Positions 1,472-34,433 of a stretch of 36,540 bases of DNA are shown in pieces. How positions within the stretch are numbered: position 1 is the first letter of the stretch; each line of letters starts with the position of its first letter. The notes beneath the pieces are model-generated. The model made no database searches. It was given only the letters and a program-made list of their open reading frames with translations, and had not been told where the DNA came from. A program made the translations under genes and the position numbers. Origin of the DNA: Dehalococcoidia bacterium (lineage in GTDB: Bacteria > Chloroflexota > Dehalococcoidia > DSTF01 > JACRBR01); contig JAJTXQ010000058.1 in NCBI GenBank assembly GCA_021462855.1, positions 1-36,540 of the forward strand. Direction: 5' to 3'.

Positions 1472-2563
1472 TCAGCGCGCCAGGTCGTTGACCGCCGCCG
1501 CGACGGCGTCGACGTCCGCATCCGACAGCGAAGGATGCACCGGGATCGACAGCACCTCGCCCGCGAGCCGCTCGGCGACCGGCAGGGAGACGCCGGCGTA
1601 GCCCAGGCGGCGGTACAGCGGCTGCCGGTGGATCGGCGCCGGGTAGAAGACCGCCGACTCGATGCCGCGCTCGCGGAGGCCCGCTTGCAGGGCGTCACGC
1701 GCCTCGCCGCCCGCGGGCACCCGCAGCGTGTACTGGTGCCAGACGTGCCGCCGGCCCGCCATCTCGCGCGGGACCACGATGCGCGGATTGCCTTCCAGCC
1801 GCGCTGTAAGGCGCGCGGCGTTGGCGCTGCGGCGGTCGTTGCGCGCGCCGATCTTCGGCAGCTGCGTGGCGCCGAGCGCGGCCGCGACCTCCGTCATGCG
1901 GAAGTTGTAGCCGGCCTCCTCGGTCACGTAGCGCGCGCGTTCGCCCTGCGAGCGCAGCATGCGCGCGCGCTCCGCGACGGCCGCGTCACCGGTCGTGATC
2001 ATGCCGCCCTCGCCGGTCTGGAGATTCTTCGTCGCGTAGAACGAGAACGCCGCCGTACCGATCGACCCGCAGCGCCGCTCGCCGGCCGTCGCGCCGACGG
2101 CCTGCGCCGCATCCTCGATCAGCGTGATGCGGCCGGGTCCGCAGAGCGCCTCGACCTCGGCGATGCGGCACGCTTGCCCGTACAGGTGCACCGCGATGAT
2201 GGCGCGCGTCGCCGGCGTGATCGCGCGCTCCGCCGACGCCGGGTCGATGCCGAAGTCGTCGTCGCACACGTCGGCGAAGACCGGCCGCGCGCCCGCGTGG
2301 AGGACGGCGGTCGCCGTTGCCGCGAACGAGAACGCCGGCACGATGACTTCGTCGCCGGCGCCGATACCGTGCGCCACCAGCGCAAGGTGCAGCGCCGCCG
2401 TGCCGCTGTTCACGGCGACCGCGTGGCCGGCGCCGCAGTACGCCGCGAACGCGCGCTCGAACGCAGCGACGCGCGGCCCCTGCGCAAGCTGCCCCGACTC
2501 GAGCGCCGCGATGACGGCCGCCTTCTCGTCGTCGTCGATCACCGGGTGCGCCAGTTTGATCAT
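1472..2563 (-). CDS. DegT/DnrJ/EryC1/StrS aminotransferase 1 (WbpE-like)
   Basis: A 363-residue PLP-dependent sugar aminotransferase. It has VNSGTAALHLAL near residue 53 (phosphate-binding loop), IEDAAQAVGA (PLP-pyridine Asp), and FSFYATKNLQTGEGG, whose Lys forms the Schiff base. Length is normal for the family. The ATG at 2563 shares its A with the TGA of the upstream HIT gene (TGATG), and no separate Shine-Dalgarno is visible, so translation is probably coupled. Between a WbpD-like acetyltransferase (upstream, beyond HIT) and a WbpB-like oxidoreductase (downstream), the best role is amination of C3 of UDP-3-keto-GlcNAcA from glutamate. The family call is firm; the sugar and carbon position are inferred from the neighbours. 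Confidence 0.88.
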   Translation of the reverse strand: MIKLAHPVIDDDEKAAVIAALESGQLAQGPRVAAFERAFAAYCGAGHAVAVNSGTAALHLALVAHGIGAGDEVIVPAFSFAATATAVLHAGARPVFADVCDDDFGIDPASAERAITPATRAIIAVHLYGQACRIAEVEALCGPGRITLIEDAAQAVGATAGERRCGSIGTAAFSFYATKNLQTGEGGMITTGDAAVAERARMLRSQGERARYVTEEAGYNFRMTEVAAALGATQLPKIGARNDRRSANAARLTARLEGNPRIVVPREMAGRRHVWHQYTLRVPAGGEARDALQAGLRERGIESAVFYPAPIHRQPLYRRLGYAGVSLPVAERLAGEVLSIPVHPSLSDADVDAVAAAVNDLAR

Positions 2564-3045
2564 CACGGCAGCGGCGCGGCGGCGTGCGCGCGGATCTCGG
2601 CGGCGGTGGCGCGCAGCTCCTCCGGCGGCCGCACGACGCCCGGCGGCGTGACGGCCGGCGAGATGCCGCTGATCTGCGGCGGCAGCGCGTACGGCGAACC
2701 GTCGCGCCGCGGCACGACGTGGAAGTGCACGTGCGGGATCTCCTGCAGGCTGGCAACGCCGTTGTTCTGATAGACCGTCATGCCGTCGGGGTCGTAGGCT
2801 CGCGCGAGCGTGTGCGCGGTCTGCCGCACCGCCTCCATGAGCGCCGCCGCCTCGTCCTCTGACAGGTCGAGGATCGTCGGCGCGTGCCGCCGCGTGACGA
2901 CGAGCGCCTGGCCATGCTCGAACTGGCGCGGGTTCACGAACGACACCGTCGCCGGCCCTTCGCTGATGATCGGCAGCACGTCGCTCTCGCCGCCGATGCA
3001 GAGGCAGAACAGGCACCGGCGCGGCTCCGCGAGACGCATCGGCAT
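2563..3045 (-). CDS. HIT family protein (histidine-triad nucleotide hydrolase/transferase)
   Basis: A 160-residue HIT-fold protein. The histidine triad HVHFHVV is at residues 105-111, preceded by an NNGVASLQEIPH segment typical of Hint/FHIT enzymes. An N-terminal CLFC (Cys11, Cys14) could bind zinc, as in many bacterial HIT proteins. HIT enzymes act on nucleoside monophosphoryl groups (AMP-NH2, Ap4A, nucleotide sugars as in GalT). ATG at 3045 lies 4 bases after the acetyltransferase stop; a second in-frame ATG is at 3039. Its stop overlaps the aminotransferase start. A HIT gene tightly embedded in an amino-sugar cluster is unusual and may mean a nucleotidyl-sugar role or simply housekeeping; the sequence alone cannot say which. 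The C-terminal 35 residues are Ala/Pro/Arg rich. Confidence 0.85.
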   Translation of the reverse strand: MPMRLAEPRRCLFCLCIGGESDVLPIISEGPATVSFVNPRQFEHGQALVVTRRHAPTILDLSEDEAAALMEAVRQTAHTLARAYDPDGMTVYQNNGVASLQEIPHVHFHVVPRRDGSPYALPPQISGISPAVTPPGVVRPPEELRATAAEIRAHAAAPLP

Positions 3046-7264: not shown

Positions 7265-8425
7265 CTAGATTCGATGTTCCCGCACGATCCCTTCGACCGC
7301 ATCCGCGACGCGGTCCACGTCTGATTCTGACATGCGCGTATAGAGCGGCAGCGACAGCATGCCCTCGAACGCCGCGTCGGCGACCGGGAAGTCGCCGGGC
7401 GCCCACCCGTACGCCTCTCGATAATACGGATGATGGTGGATCGGAATAAAGTGGACGGACGTCCCGATCCCCCGTTCCTTCAACTTTGATATGACCGCGT
7501 CCCGGCCGATGTCAAGCGAGCCCGGCCGGAGCCGGAGCACGTACAGGTGCCACGCGTGCGTCGTGCCCCCTCGCTCGGACGGCGCAATGACCTCTGGCAC
7601 GGACGCGAAGCGGGCGTTGTAACGCTCGGCGAGACGGCGGCGCGCGTCCTGGAACGCGCCGATGCGGGCGAACTGCGCGTGGCCGAGCGCCGCCTGGAAG
7701 TCCGACATGGCGTAGTTGTAGCCCGGCGCCAGGACCTGGTACGCCCACGAGCCGCGCGCCGTGTAACGGTCCCACGCGTCGTTGCTCATGCCGTGCAGCG
7801 CGAGCAGCCGGCAGCGCTCGGCGAGCTCGTCGTCGTCCGTCGTCAGCATGCCGCCGCGGCCGCTCGTCACGTTCTTGGTGGGGTAGAAGCTGAACACCGT
7901 CGCATCGCCAAACGTGCCGATCGCCCGGGCGCCAATCGCCGTGCCGAGCGCATGCGCCGCGTCCTCGACCACGCGGATGCCGCGGGGCCGGGCAAGCGCG
8001 AGCAGCTCGGGCATGCGGCAGGCGGAGCCGCCATGGTGCACCGGCATCAGCGCCTTGGTGCGCGGCGTGAGCGCGCCCTCGACCGCCGCCGCGTCGATGC
8101 AGAAGTCGTCGATGCCGATGTCCGCGAGCACCGGTGTGGCGCCCGTGTGGACGATCACGTTCACGGTGGCGGCGAACGTCGTGGGCGTCGTGATCACCTC
8201 ATCGCCGGGCCCGATGCCGAGCGCCACGAGCGCCAGGTGCATGCCGGCCGTCGCCGAGTCGAGCGCGACCGCGTGTTTCGCGCCGGTCCAGGCGGCGAAC
8301 TCCGCCTCGAACGCACGCACCCGCGGGCCGGGCGCCAGCCACCCCGAGCGCAGCACCTCGGTCACCGCGCCGATCTCATCGTCGCCGATGTCGGGCAGGT
8401 TGTAGGGCAGGAAGTCCTCGTTCAT
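7265..8425 (-). CDS. DegT/DnrJ/EryC1/StrS aminotransferase 2 (PglE/ArnB/SpsC-like)
   Basis: A 386-residue PLP sugar aminotransferase. Motifs in order: LDSATAGMHLAL, TTPTTFAATVN, VEDAAHALGT, then FSFYPTKNVTSGRGGML with the Schiff-base Lys. The very conserved GEGG after that Lys reads GRGG here. HGMSNDAWDRY and YNYAMSDFQAALG match ArnB/SpsC-type enzymes that aminate C4 of UDP-4-keto sugars. The ATG at 8425 starts a typical N-terminus (PYNLPDIGDDE); further upstream the frame is low-complexity. Lying two genes upstream of the CapD-like dehydratase and adjacent to the initiating transferase, it most likely converts the 4-keto product to a 4-amino sugar. It differs clearly from the first aminotransferase, so the cluster probably makes two amino sugars. 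Confidence 0.88.
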   Translation of the reverse strand: MNEDFLPYNLPDIGDDEIGAVTEVLRSGWLAPGPRVRAFEAEFAAWTGAKHAVALDSATAGMHLALVALGIGPGDEVITTPTTFAATVNVIVHTGATPVLADIGIDDFCIDAAAVEGALTPRTKALMPVHHGGSACRMPELLALARPRGIRVVEDAAHALGTAIGARAIGTFGDATVFSFYPTKNVTSGRGGMLTTDDDELAERCRLLALHGMSNDAWDRYTARGSWAYQVLAPGYNYAMSDFQAALGHAQFARIGAFQDARRRLAERYNARFASVPEVIAPSERGGTTHAWHLYVLRLRPGSLDIGRDAVISKLKERGIGTSVHFIPIHHHPYYREAYGWAPGDFPVADAAFEGMLSLPLYTRMSESDVDRVADAVEGIVREHRI

Positions 8426-8512
8426 TCGCGCGTCATGGTATCGCGCGCCGTCCGCGGCCCGCGCGCCAGGCGATGATGGCGCGCGCGGGCGCATCGGCGG
8501 TGTCGCCGCGCG

Positions 8513-31649: not shown

Positions 31650-32360
31650 TCAGCGCGCGCCGGCGGCGATGTGCGCCGCGAACTCCTCGACGAGCCCGGC
31701 GGGGGTGCGCTGCACGCACGTGAACATCGGCGTGTCGCGCAGCGTGTACTCGCTCGCCCGCGTGTACCGCAGGTCTTGCACCAGGTCCAGGAACTCCGCC
31801 GGGTCGTCGCCCTCGAACGCCACGACGAACTCCTGGTCATCGAGCCCGTAGCTGTAGCTCGTGTTGATGCGGATCCGGGGGTACTTGCGGCCAACGGCGA
31901 CGTGCTCGCGCATCATCTTGCCGCGCTCCTCACCCGGGAGCATGTACCAGGCGCGCGTCTTCACCATCGGGTACACGAAGACGTAGGGCGCGCCATCCGG
32001 ATACGCGCGCAGCGCTTCGCGCGCCGGGTCCGTCTCGGGCGCGGCGTATGGCGAGGGTTTCGTCATCGACAGGAAGTTATGCGCGAGCGCGAGGTGGTCG
32101 CCGGCGGCGGTCGCGCGGATCGCGCGCTCGAACGCCTGCAATGGCTCCGTGCCGTCGGGCGTGCGCAGCCACGCGGCGAAATCGACGTCGGCGCGCAGGC
32201 CGACAAGGCTGTAGCAGCGCTGCCACGGTGCGAACGGCTCCTCGAGCACGCCACGCAGCTCCACGAGCGCCCGCTCACGGTGGCCGTGGTCCAGCGCGCG
32301 CCATGACGGCGCGAAGCCGTAGAACGCGAACCGCATGTACTCGCGCGTCTCATCCGGCAT
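31650..32360 (-). CDS. hemQ: HemQ-type coproheme decarboxylase (chlorite dismutase family)
   Basis: A 236-residue chlorite-dismutase-family protein. The C-terminal half has Tyr130 in FVYPMVKT, WYMLPGEERGKMMREH with the likely proximal heme ligand His153, and GLDDQEFVVAFEGDDP, the HemQ pattern. HemQ oxidatively decarboxylates Fe-coproporphyrin III to heme b with peroxide. True chlorite dismutases carry a distal Arg needed for chlorite; gene context supports HemQ. ATG 32360 has AGGAGGAG 7 bases upstream, located inside the ahbAB gene, and the two genes overlap by 11 bases, so they are tightly coupled. It follows the siroheme decarboxylase, implying a shared heme route. Confidence 0.93.
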   Translation of the reverse strand: MPDETREYMRFAFYGFAPSWRALDHGHRERALVELRGVLEEPFAPWQRCYSLVGLRADVDFAAWLRTPDGTEPLQAFERAIRATAAGDHLALAHNFLSMTKPSPYAAPETDPAREALRAYPDGAPYVFVYPMVKTRAWYMLPGEERGKMMREHVAVGRKYPRIRINTSYSYGLDDQEFVVAFEGDDPAEFLDLVQDLRYTRASEYTLRDTPMFTCVQRTPAGLVEEFAAHIAAGAR

Positions 32361-33420
32361 GGGCGAGCTCCTCCTTTCCGCGCACGTTCGCGCGCTCCCA
32401 CGCATCGAACTCCGGCGTGAAGTACGCCAGCCGCACCTTCTTGTACTCGGTCGTCGAGTACAGCACGGCGTAGTCGCCGAGGCCGTGCTCCTCCGCGAGT
32501 CGCTTCACGAAGTCCTCGCATTCCTCCTTCTTGCGCGCGTGGATCATCGTGAACAGGTTGTACTTCCAGTCGTCGTACTGCGGGCGCAGGTAGCAGTGGC
32601 TGATGGCCGTATAGCCCGCCATCGTCTGCCCCATGTCGAGCACCGCCGCGGGGTCGACGTTCCACACCGCCATGCCGTTCGCGCCGAAGCCGGCCTTGCG
32701 ATGCCGCAGGATCGCCGCGAACCGGCGCAGGTAGCCGCGCCGCTGCAGATCCTCGAGCGCGGCGATCAGCCCGTCGGGGCTCGTGCCGAGCGCTTTCGCC
32801 GGCGCCGCGAACGGGTCGCGCTCGATCGCGAGGTCGCCCTGCACGGCGCGCACAACTTCGATGTCGCGCGGAGTGAGCGTATGCGACGCCGCGACCTCGC
32901 GCTGCTCGTGCGTGTACTGCGGCTTTGAACGGTGGTCCAGCGCGCGCTCGCCCGTCATGTCCAGCGTGACGCCGATCTTGAACAGGCGCAGCGTCGGCAG
33001 CATGCGCGTCGACTCGGCGCCGGCGAGCCGGTGCAGCGCGGCGACGTGCGATTCAAGGTCGCTGCCCGGCGGCACCGCGATCGTGAACCACATGTTGAAC
33101 GCGTGCGTGCGCCGGTAGTTGTGGCTGACGCCGGGGTGCGCGTTGATGATCTCCGCCGCATCCTTGAGCCGCTCCTCGGGCACGCGCATGGCGACCAGCG
33201 ACGACACGTACCCCAGCGCCTTCGTGTCGAAGATCGGGCTCACCTGCCGCAGCACGCCGGACGCGCGCATCGCCCGCAGCCGCGCGATCACGTCGGCTTC
33301 GGCGGCGCCGGTGCGTGCGGCAAGCTCGGCGAACGGCTCGCGCACGAGGGGGGACTTGTCCTGCATCTCGTTGAGCAGCGCCTGGTCGATCGCGTCCATC
33401 GCGGGCGCGGCGCCGCTCAT
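32350..33420 (-). CDS. ahbAB: Siroheme decarboxylase, AhbA-AhbB fused in one polypeptide
   Basis: A 356-residue protein with two Lrp/AsnC-like halves. Residues 8-155 form an HTH plus RAM-like unit containing VSHNYRRTHAFNMWFTIA; residues 180-345 repeat the plan with ISHCYLRPQYDDWKYNLFTMIHAR and end with LYSTTEYKKVRLAYF. These His/Tyr/Arg patterns are those of the AhbA and AhbB subunits (NirDLGH family), which remove two carboxyls from siroheme to give 12,18-didecarboxysiroheme in heme or heme d1 synthesis. Most organisms have two separate genes. Start ATG 33420 overlaps the aldo/keto reductase stop as ATGA; the end overlaps hemQ. No radical-SAM ahbC is in the window, though one is required if the route makes heme. 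Confidence 0.93.
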   Translation of the reverse strand: MSGAAPAMDAIDQALLNEMQDKSPLVREPFAELAARTGAAEADVIARLRAMRASGVLRQVSPIFDTKALGYVSSLVAMRVPEERLKDAAEIINAHPGVSHNYRRTHAFNMWFTIAVPPGSDLESHVAALHRLAGAESTRMLPTLRLFKIGVTLDMTGERALDHRSKPQYTHEQREVAASHTLTPRDIEVVRAVQGDLAIERDPFAAPAKALGTSPDGLIAALEDLQRRGYLRRFAAILRHRKAGFGANGMAVWNVDPAAVLDMGQTMAGYTAISHCYLRPQYDDWKYNLFTMIHARKKEECEDFVKRLAEEHGLGDYAVLYSTTEYKKVRLAYFTPEFDAWERANVRGKEELAHAG

Positions 33421-34433
33421 CGCGCCGCCCCCGCCGCCTGCGCGTTCTCTACCGCGCGCTCAATGCCGAAGTTGTCGTCGTACAGCGCCTGGACGCGCGC
33501 AAGCTCGCCGTCGGTCAACGGCGCGACATCGCCCGTCGCCGCGAACTCGGCGAGCTGCTCGCGGTCGTAGATGTTCGGCAGCGTCGACGCGATCAGCGGC
33601 TCCGCGAGGATCCAGCGCAGCGCCACCTGCCCGAGCGTCGCGCCCGGGCGCGCCTCGGTCAGAAACGACAGCTGATCCACCTTCTTGAGGCCGTTGATCA
33701 GCCACGACCGCGGGCGGTGCCGGCGGTGGTCGTTGGCGGCGAACTGCGTGTCCTCGGTGTACTTGCCTTCGAGCAGGCCGCTGCTGTGCGGCACGCGCGT
33801 CACCACGCCGGCGCCGCGCGCGCGGCACGCGGCGATGTGCGCGCGGCCGGGATCCTGCTCCAGCAGGTTATAGATGATCTGCATGCCGGAGATGTCCCGC
33901 TCGCGCGCCGCGCGCACGCCTTCTTCCTCCCAGCCGATCGCCGGGCCGAGCGCGACGCCGTACGCGCGCACCTTGCCCTCGCGCTTCAGGTCCTCGAGCG
34001 TGGCGAAGGTCTCGTCGCGCGAGATCGTGTCCATCTTCGGGTTGTGCAACTGGTAGAAGTCGATGCGGTCGCGCTTCAGGCGGCGCAGGCTCTCTTCGCA
34101 CGCGCGGCGGATGTGCCGTGGACTGAAGTCCTGCGGGATCTCCTGCTGGCCACGGCGCGCGCCGGCGTGCGTATAGAAGTCGTAGCCGCACTTCGTCGCG
34201 ATGATCACGTCCGGATCGTCGCCGAACGCGGCGCCGAGCTGCTCCTCCGACCGCCCGTTGCCGTAGCTGTCCGACGCATCGAAGAAGTTGATGCCGAGCG
34301 CGCGGGCCTCGCGCAGCAGGGCGACGGCGTCGTCGTCGGTGTACTCGCCCCACCAGCCGGTGCTCGTCGTCCAGACGCCGAACCCCACGACCGATACGCC
34401 GAGGCCCGACCTCCCGAGTTCGCGGTACTCCAA
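33417..34433 (-). CDS. Aldo/keto reductase
   Basis: A 338-residue AKR with a TIM barrel. The catalytic tetrad is in place: Asp52 and Tyr57 in FFDASDSYGNG, Lys81 in IATKCG and His130 in FYQLHNPK. NADPH-binding ends with ATLPNIYDREQLAEF. TTG 34433 is preceded by GGAGG with 6-base spacing and gives MEYRELGRSGL, the canonical start; no ATG fits there. Its stop overlaps the ahbAB ATG (ATGA), so it is the first gene of the aldo/keto reductase-ahbAB-hemQ-tsaB-ndk run. The SAM-independent, NADPH-dependent enzyme has no known role in heme synthesis; its coupling to ahbAB is unexplained. Confidence 0.9.
   Translation of the reverse strand: MEYRELGRSGLGVSVVGFGVWTTSTGWWGEYTDDDAVALLREARALGINFFDASDSYGNGRSEEQLGAAFGDDPDVIIATKCGYDFYTHAGARRGQQEIPQDFSPRHIRRACEESLRRLKRDRIDFYQLHNPKMDTISRDETFATLEDLKREGKVRAYGVALGPAIGWEEEGVRAARERDISGMQIIYNLLEQDPGRAHIAACRARGAGVVTRVPHSSGLLEGKYTEDTQFAANDHRRHRPRSWLINGLKKVDQLSFLTEARPGATLGQVALRWILAEPLIASTLPNIYDREQLAEFAATGDVAPLTDGELARVQALYDDNFGIERAVENAQAAGAAR

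Follow-up and report, generated by a model that had tools for sequence, protein, structure and literature searches.

The window analyzed here, the whole stretch of 36,540 nucleotides from a Dehalococcoidia bacterium, places a gene for siroheme decarboxylase (AhbAB), an enzyme of the siroheme-dependent route to heme, next to a gene for HemQ, the last enzyme of the coproporphyrin-dependent route. The question raised by this locus is whether the two enzymes serve a single path to heme and, if so, which enzyme makes the coproheme between them. The features concerned are the following.

33417-34433, minus strand: aldo/keto reductase (AKR), first gene of the cluster (Pfam Aldo_ket_red, 186 bits)
33417-33420, minus strand: overlap of AKR stop and ahbAB start, ATGA, 4 bases
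32350-33420, minus strand: AhbAB, predicted fused siroheme decarboxylase, AhbA half followed by AhbB half, 356 aa
32350-32360, minus strand: overlap of ahbAB end and hemQ start, 11 bases
31650-32360, minus strand: HemQ/ChdC, predicted coproheme decarboxylase (Pfam Chlor_dismutase, 184 bits)

The order of transcription within the window is AKR, AhbAB, and HemQ. Since the start codon of hemQ is the ATG at 32360, located behind the Shine-Dalgarno sequence GGAGG, the overlap between ahbAB and hemQ is exactly 11 bases, which agrees with the preliminary description of this locus. The AKR gene starts with TTG at 34433 and has its own GGAGG in front. Co-transcription of ahbAB and hemQ is suggested by their overlap and by the conserved arrangement. 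The gene pair reported in the preliminary description is thus real, but the third conserved member, the AKR, had been missed. Elsewhere in the window, 2 DegT/DnrJ/EryC1 sugar aminotransferases are encoded at 1472-3016 and 7265-8494, with ∼4 kb between them.

Both enzyme assignments made in the preliminary description are supported by family and active-site matches. AhbAB exceeds the cut-offs of the NCBIfam AhbA model with one half (257 bits, cut-off 140) and of the AhbB model with the other (239 bits, cut-off 125), and contains the Pfam domains NirdL-like_HTH and AsnC_trans_reg2. Both halves carry the HXYXR motif (HNYRR at 100 and HCYLR at 275), which is the active-site motif of siroheme decarboxylase, with the catalytic Arg in the AhbB half (PMC4145669). 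The 2 equivalog models and the 2 motifs place the protein in the siroheme decarboxylase family, and its closest solved structures are the NirD-like protein 4ch7 and AhbA/AhbB 4czd. Proteins that resemble AhbAB but diverge further (29-40 bits against PF17805, frames of 377-468 aa) occur in families f3, f4, and f8 (L032-L039), and may have a function other than siroheme decarboxylation.

As for HemQ, it is the sole gene of the Chlor_dismutase family in the genome. When aligned to 6xub/7q4f, with the residue numbering of Corynebacterium diphtheriae ChdC anchored by the W183Y entry, Y135 of ChdC falls on the Tyr of the YPMVK segment encoded in the window, and the proximal His residues match in position as well. 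The catalytic Tyr and the following Lys are kept in all homologues considered (50/50 each), and the proximal His in 49/50, which bears out the prediction of a coproheme decarboxylase. The protein stays under the NCBIfam HemQ equivalog cut-offs; for HemQ_actino it reaches 120 bits against a strict cut-off of 235, a shortfall that limits naming by this model only, the model being named for another phylum. Chlorite dismutases belong to the same Pfam family, but they match at lower scores than coproheme decarboxylases, which are the best solved relatives; with the decarboxylase Tyr and proximal His retained and the gene linked to AhbAB and other heme genes, it appears highly unlikely that the protein is a chlorite dismutase or some other heme peroxidase, and this reading was dropped.

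The heme gene content of the genome, a 3.02-Mb draft with 97.5% completeness, was established by family searches and from contig stretches. No hemE is detected (best match of 22 bits vs a cut-off of 303), ferrochelatase (hemH) has 0 matches, and the best hemY/cgoX candidate has 64.6 bits vs 97.85, with paralogous flavoproteins occurring in the genome. CobA/SUMT is present, and contig 35 contains the block BldC-CysG_N-HemA-HemC-CobA/HemD-HemB; among the genes found, iron insertion could be assigned to the CysG-N-type protein alone. Because hemE and ferrochelatase are absent and hemY/cgoX does not exceed its cut-off, the siroheme route is the only visible path to coproheme, and the core of the original proposal holds up, with CobA, the CysG-N-type protein, and AhbC all present.

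Along this route, uroporphyrinogen III would be converted to siroheme by CobA and the CysG-N-type enzyme encoded on contig 35, and AhbAB would then decarboxylate siroheme at C12 and C18, with didecarboxysiroheme (DDSH) as the product. Loss of the C2 and C7 acetates would yield coproheme, a step that AhbC on contig 6 could perform in this genome, and HemQ would finally produce heme b by oxidative decarboxylation. Judged from gene content, the route from siroheme through coproheme to heme via HemQ probably operates here. Direct observation covers the gene content, with hemE and ferrochelatase absent, the overlaps between genes, conservation, and the matches to families and active sites; co-transcription, flux, oxygen dependence, all catalysis, and any role of the AKR are inferred from these.

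The AhbC-like protein, which the preliminary description had suggested looking for, belongs to a second heme cluster (L014:12718-16249, equal to positions 261717-265248 of contig 6). In this cluster the AhbC-like gene is followed by a radical-SAM gene of AhbD-like type and then, in convergent orientation, by another AhbAB fusion, which shares 54% identity with that of the window; a NarX/NarL-like two-component system lies directly upstream. The AhbC-like protein scores 598 bits with AhbC, 543 with NirJ1, and 450 with NirJ (NirJ cut-off 515). It remains under the TIGR04546 cut-off (598/650 bits), as do all its relatives in the class sample, the best of which has 636. Its cysteine motifs, CX3CX2C and CX2CX5CX21C, correspond to the pattern of AhbC, i.e., CX3CX2C with CX2CX5CX20-21C (PMC12505453). 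The search for ahbD gives a mixed outcome: the gene following AhbC is related to AhbD, but with 369 bits it is under the TIGR04545 AhbD cut-off of 500, while it exceeds that of TIGR04053 (454 bits, cut-off 395), and its function is uncertain.

The AhbD-like gene after AhbC and the second AhbAB beside it speak against HemQ as the only ending, as the preliminary description had it. By analogy with known systems, HemQ is probably one of 2 endings in this genome, the AhbD-like protein being the other; AhbC, the AhbD-like protein, and the second AhbAB would then represent the likely low-oxygen set, and the AKR-AhbAB-HemQ cluster the likely oxic set. The findings that could have turned the original reading around point the other way, since hemE and ferrochelatase are absent, HemQ has the decarboxylase residues, and the NirJ score is below that for AhbC.

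The AhbC step proposed for the operon cannot be taken as given in general, however: of the relatives that carry this operon, most are without AhbC. In six relatives with 90-98% completeness (G003, G004, G009, G011, G013, and G018), AhbAB and HemQ occur with neither hemE nor AhbC, the AhbAB of G009 and G013 being of a divergent form; the best radical-SAM score in AhbC-lacking relatives is ∼66 bits. The ferrochelatase search in relatives covers the class sample only. Among 42 named genomes with AhbAB, hemE exceeds the cut-off in 0, HemQ is present in 39, and an AhbC-like protein in 15. HemQ occurs in all 27 AhbC-lacking named genomes, and AhbC in all 3 that lack HemQ. Ten of these 27 are isolates, namely, 4 Brevibacillus, 2 Shimazuella, and 1 each of Thermoactinomyces, Seinonella, Paenactinomyces, and Lihuaxuella, genera that grow aerobically. 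Vulcanibacillus and Tepidibacillus have AhbC.

Two explanations for the missing AhbC were rejected. A hidden AhbC beside AhbAB was not found, as there is no AhbC/AhbD-type radical-SAM gene within 10 kb in any of 80 AhbAB loci, and incompleteness is unlikely to account for the missing gene, given the 6 relatives with 90-98% completeness and the 10 isolates. The simplest reading is that an enzyme unrelated to AhbC takes off the 2 acetates in these genomes, and it is somewhat more probable than the opposite that AhbC-lacking relatives use such an enzyme for DDSH. No report of this gap was found, and earlier notice of it in Kim et al. 2021 or Dailey et al. 2017 is possible.

In relatives with the oxic set only, the AKR would be the best-placed candidate for making coproheme. 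It adjoins HemQ, or is separated from it by AhbAB only, in 16/19 HemQ-bearing genomes of the class sample. The 3 exceptions are G039, G021, which carries a hemE-hemH-hemQ cluster, and G022, whose HemQ is found at the end of one contig and whose AKR adjoins AhbAB on another. In the scan of named genomes, HemQ stands alongside 19 of the 80 AhbAB loci and the AKR is present in 19/19, with the order AKR-AhbAB-HemQ in 17 and AKR-HemQ-AhbAB in 2. Chloroflexota show both of these orders as well as AKR-HemQ alone. The most complete arrangement belongs to G018, with a single run of AKR-AhbAB-HemQ-BldC-CysG_N-HemA-HemC-CobA/HemD-HemB-HAD-HemL and no AhbC in the genome; the only enzymes of this run with no assigned step are the AKR and the HAD hydrolase.

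In Firmicutes, AhbAB sits in a cluster hemA-CysG_N-hemC-cobA/hemD-hemB-AhbAB-hemL, and when a candidate other than the AKR was sought around HemQ in this phylum, no gene proved to be shared by all neighborhoods. Thermoactinomyces daqus (L221:8033-15825) has, on one strand, an AKR of the same subfamily and, after it, genes for cytochrome oxidase subunits, for UbiA- and CtaA-type proteins, and for HemQ; that genome encodes one more HemQ, of a different type, at a separate locus (L220). The AKR has no close NCBIfam equivalog, the best being YdjG (98 vs 550 bits). Its residues D93, Y98, K122, and H171 are near-invariant and are taken here to be the catalytic tetrad Asp-Tyr-Lys-His. No report linking the AKR to AhbAB or HemQ was found in the literature. 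In heme operons of Chloroflexota, the CysG_N-hemA-hemC block is preceded by a gene for a BldC-like helix-turn-helix protein (L087:9963-10607, L100:12953-13624), which is possibly their regulator.

According to gene pairing in the class sample, AhbC has an AhbD-like neighbor wherever the assembly allows, and HemQ has the AKR. This parallel suggests that the AKR may be to AhbC as HemQ is to AhbD, so that an oxic module of AKR and HemQ would mirror an anoxic module of AhbC and AhbD, with the AhbAB step common to both. As for chemistry, DDSH exposed to air forms lactones from its acetates on rings A and B (PMC12505453), and NirF/NirC have as their actual substrate an aerobically formed dilactone of the DDSH-related NirJ product (PMC13168839). 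The AKR possibly acts on a lactone form of DDSH arising in this way. The C3 lactone is 2 electrons above DDSH, and an NAD(P)H-dependent enzyme would therefore fit the redox sense for conversion to porphyrin and acetate. To our knowledge, there is no AKR with lactone-to-porphyrin chemistry. The AKR is thus the leading candidate for removal of the DDSH acetates in Chloroflexota, and that it is, wholly or in part, an oxygen-tolerant replacement for radical-SAM AhbC is proposed tentatively, as a rather doubtful possibility.

A different reading comes close to an even chance without reaching it, namely, that the pathway always runs through AhbC, with HemQ and the AhbD-like protein as alternative last enzymes under oxic and anoxic conditions, respectively, and with the AKR unrelated, e.g., engaged in aldehyde clean-up. 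It agrees with the presence of both AhbC and the AhbD-like gene in this genome and with Haloferax volcanii, which needs pitA aerobically and ahbD anaerobically (PMC5746218). The same operon, however, occurs in genomes with no AhbC, including the relatives with 90-98% completeness, and the link between AKR and HemQ persists through several gene orders. The AKR also occurs in AhbC-positive genomes and is not strictly complementary to AhbC.

It is improbable that the AhbC-lacking genomes have a broken pathway, or one for another product, and scavenge heme. Kim et al. 2021, as cited in PMC10991733, reportedly deal with heme auxotrophy among abundant lineages of aquatic habitats, and a pattern of loss is seen in the relative G002 (96% complete), which keeps cobA and has no match to AhbAB, HemQ, AhbC, or hemE; G002 is possibly a heme auxotroph in the same family. 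In the AhbC-lacking genomes, however, the genes of early and final steps stay in tight operons, up to the whole run from HemA to HemQ. In addition, HemQ is present in 34/35 AhbC-lacking genomes with AhbAB (class sample and named genomes tallied), 10 of which are isolates of aerobic genera; the Fisher test for 34/35 vs 20/29 gives P = 0.004, a value that ignores relatedness and serves as a guide only.

AhbAB and NirDLGH are homologous. DDSH is also a precursor of heme d1 (PMC7242693), but it is hardly credible that AhbAB serves heme d1 here with HemQ belonging to another route, because the only NirJ/AhbC-type protein scores better as AhbC and stays under the NirJ cut-off, NirJ-like proteins are absent from the AhbC-lacking relatives, and HemQ has no other source of coproheme in the absence of hemE and ferrochelatase; this purpose was dropped on the NirJ scores and the absence of AhbC/NirJ in relatives.

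The preferred route from siroheme via coproheme to HemQ has its nearest known counterpart in H. volcanii, where genetics assigns pitA to aerobic and ahbD to anaerobic growth (PMC5746218; PMC8305020), which bears out the earlier remark that comparable mixes exist in archaea. In both systems the siroheme route is combined with 2 alternative final enzymes, one of the radical-SAM AhbD type and the other HemQ/ChdC (PitA), and in H. volcanii the classical late genes are likewise absent save pgdH1. In contrast, H. volcanii is an archaeon, its PitA has an extra ABM-like domain, AhbC is present, and no AKR partner is reported in the literature found, whereas here AhbAB and HemQ form an operon with the AKR. 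AhbAB, AhbC, the AhbD-like protein, and the siroheme supply resemble the AhbA-D system of sulfate reducers and methanogens; unlike there, HemQ is added as a peroxide/oxygen-type ending, AhbAB is fused, and many relatives have no AhbC. HemQ/ChdC as the last enzyme is shared with the coproporphyrin-dependent pathway (HemE, CgoX, CpfC, ChdC), but HemE and CpfC are missing, CgoX does not exceed its cut-off, and coproheme would derive from siroheme. In chemical terms, the NirF/NirC step of heme d1 synthesis is a precedent for a route that starts from DDSH under oxic conditions (PMC13168839), although these proteins are periplasmic, are not AKRs, and keep the acetates.

In the literature, the siroheme route appears as an ancient path that needs no oxygen and belongs to archaea and to bacteria that reduce sulfate (PMC10991733, PMC10965808), and, in a 2024 review citing Kim et al. 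2021, Chloroflexota are said to mix the 3 heme pathways (PMC10991733). Chloroflexota mosaics and haloarchaeal AhbABC with ChdC are already known, and the mosaic itself is not new. The present data add aerobic-type bacteria of several phyla with siroheme-route genes, no hemE, a HemQ ending, and a middle-step enzyme that is often missing. If the organisms with AhbC-lacking genomes do make heme, one reaction of a central cofactor pathway is carried out by an enzyme still to be discovered; the conserved AKR is a specific gene to test, and isolates with this pattern exist (Brevibacillus, Thermoactinomyces).

Thermoleophilia-like genomes (L144, L149, L158, L173, and L178-L182) have AhbAB near hemL and near genes that, by sequence appearance only, resemble UbiD/UbiX and cytochrome bc-complex genes; hemE is missing in them, and AhbC in 2/3 tested. 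Several metagenome-assembled genomes carry names implausible for their gene content (Thermoflexus, Dehalococcoides mccartyi, and Bifidobacterium breve; L107, L112, L127, L173, L178, and L180).
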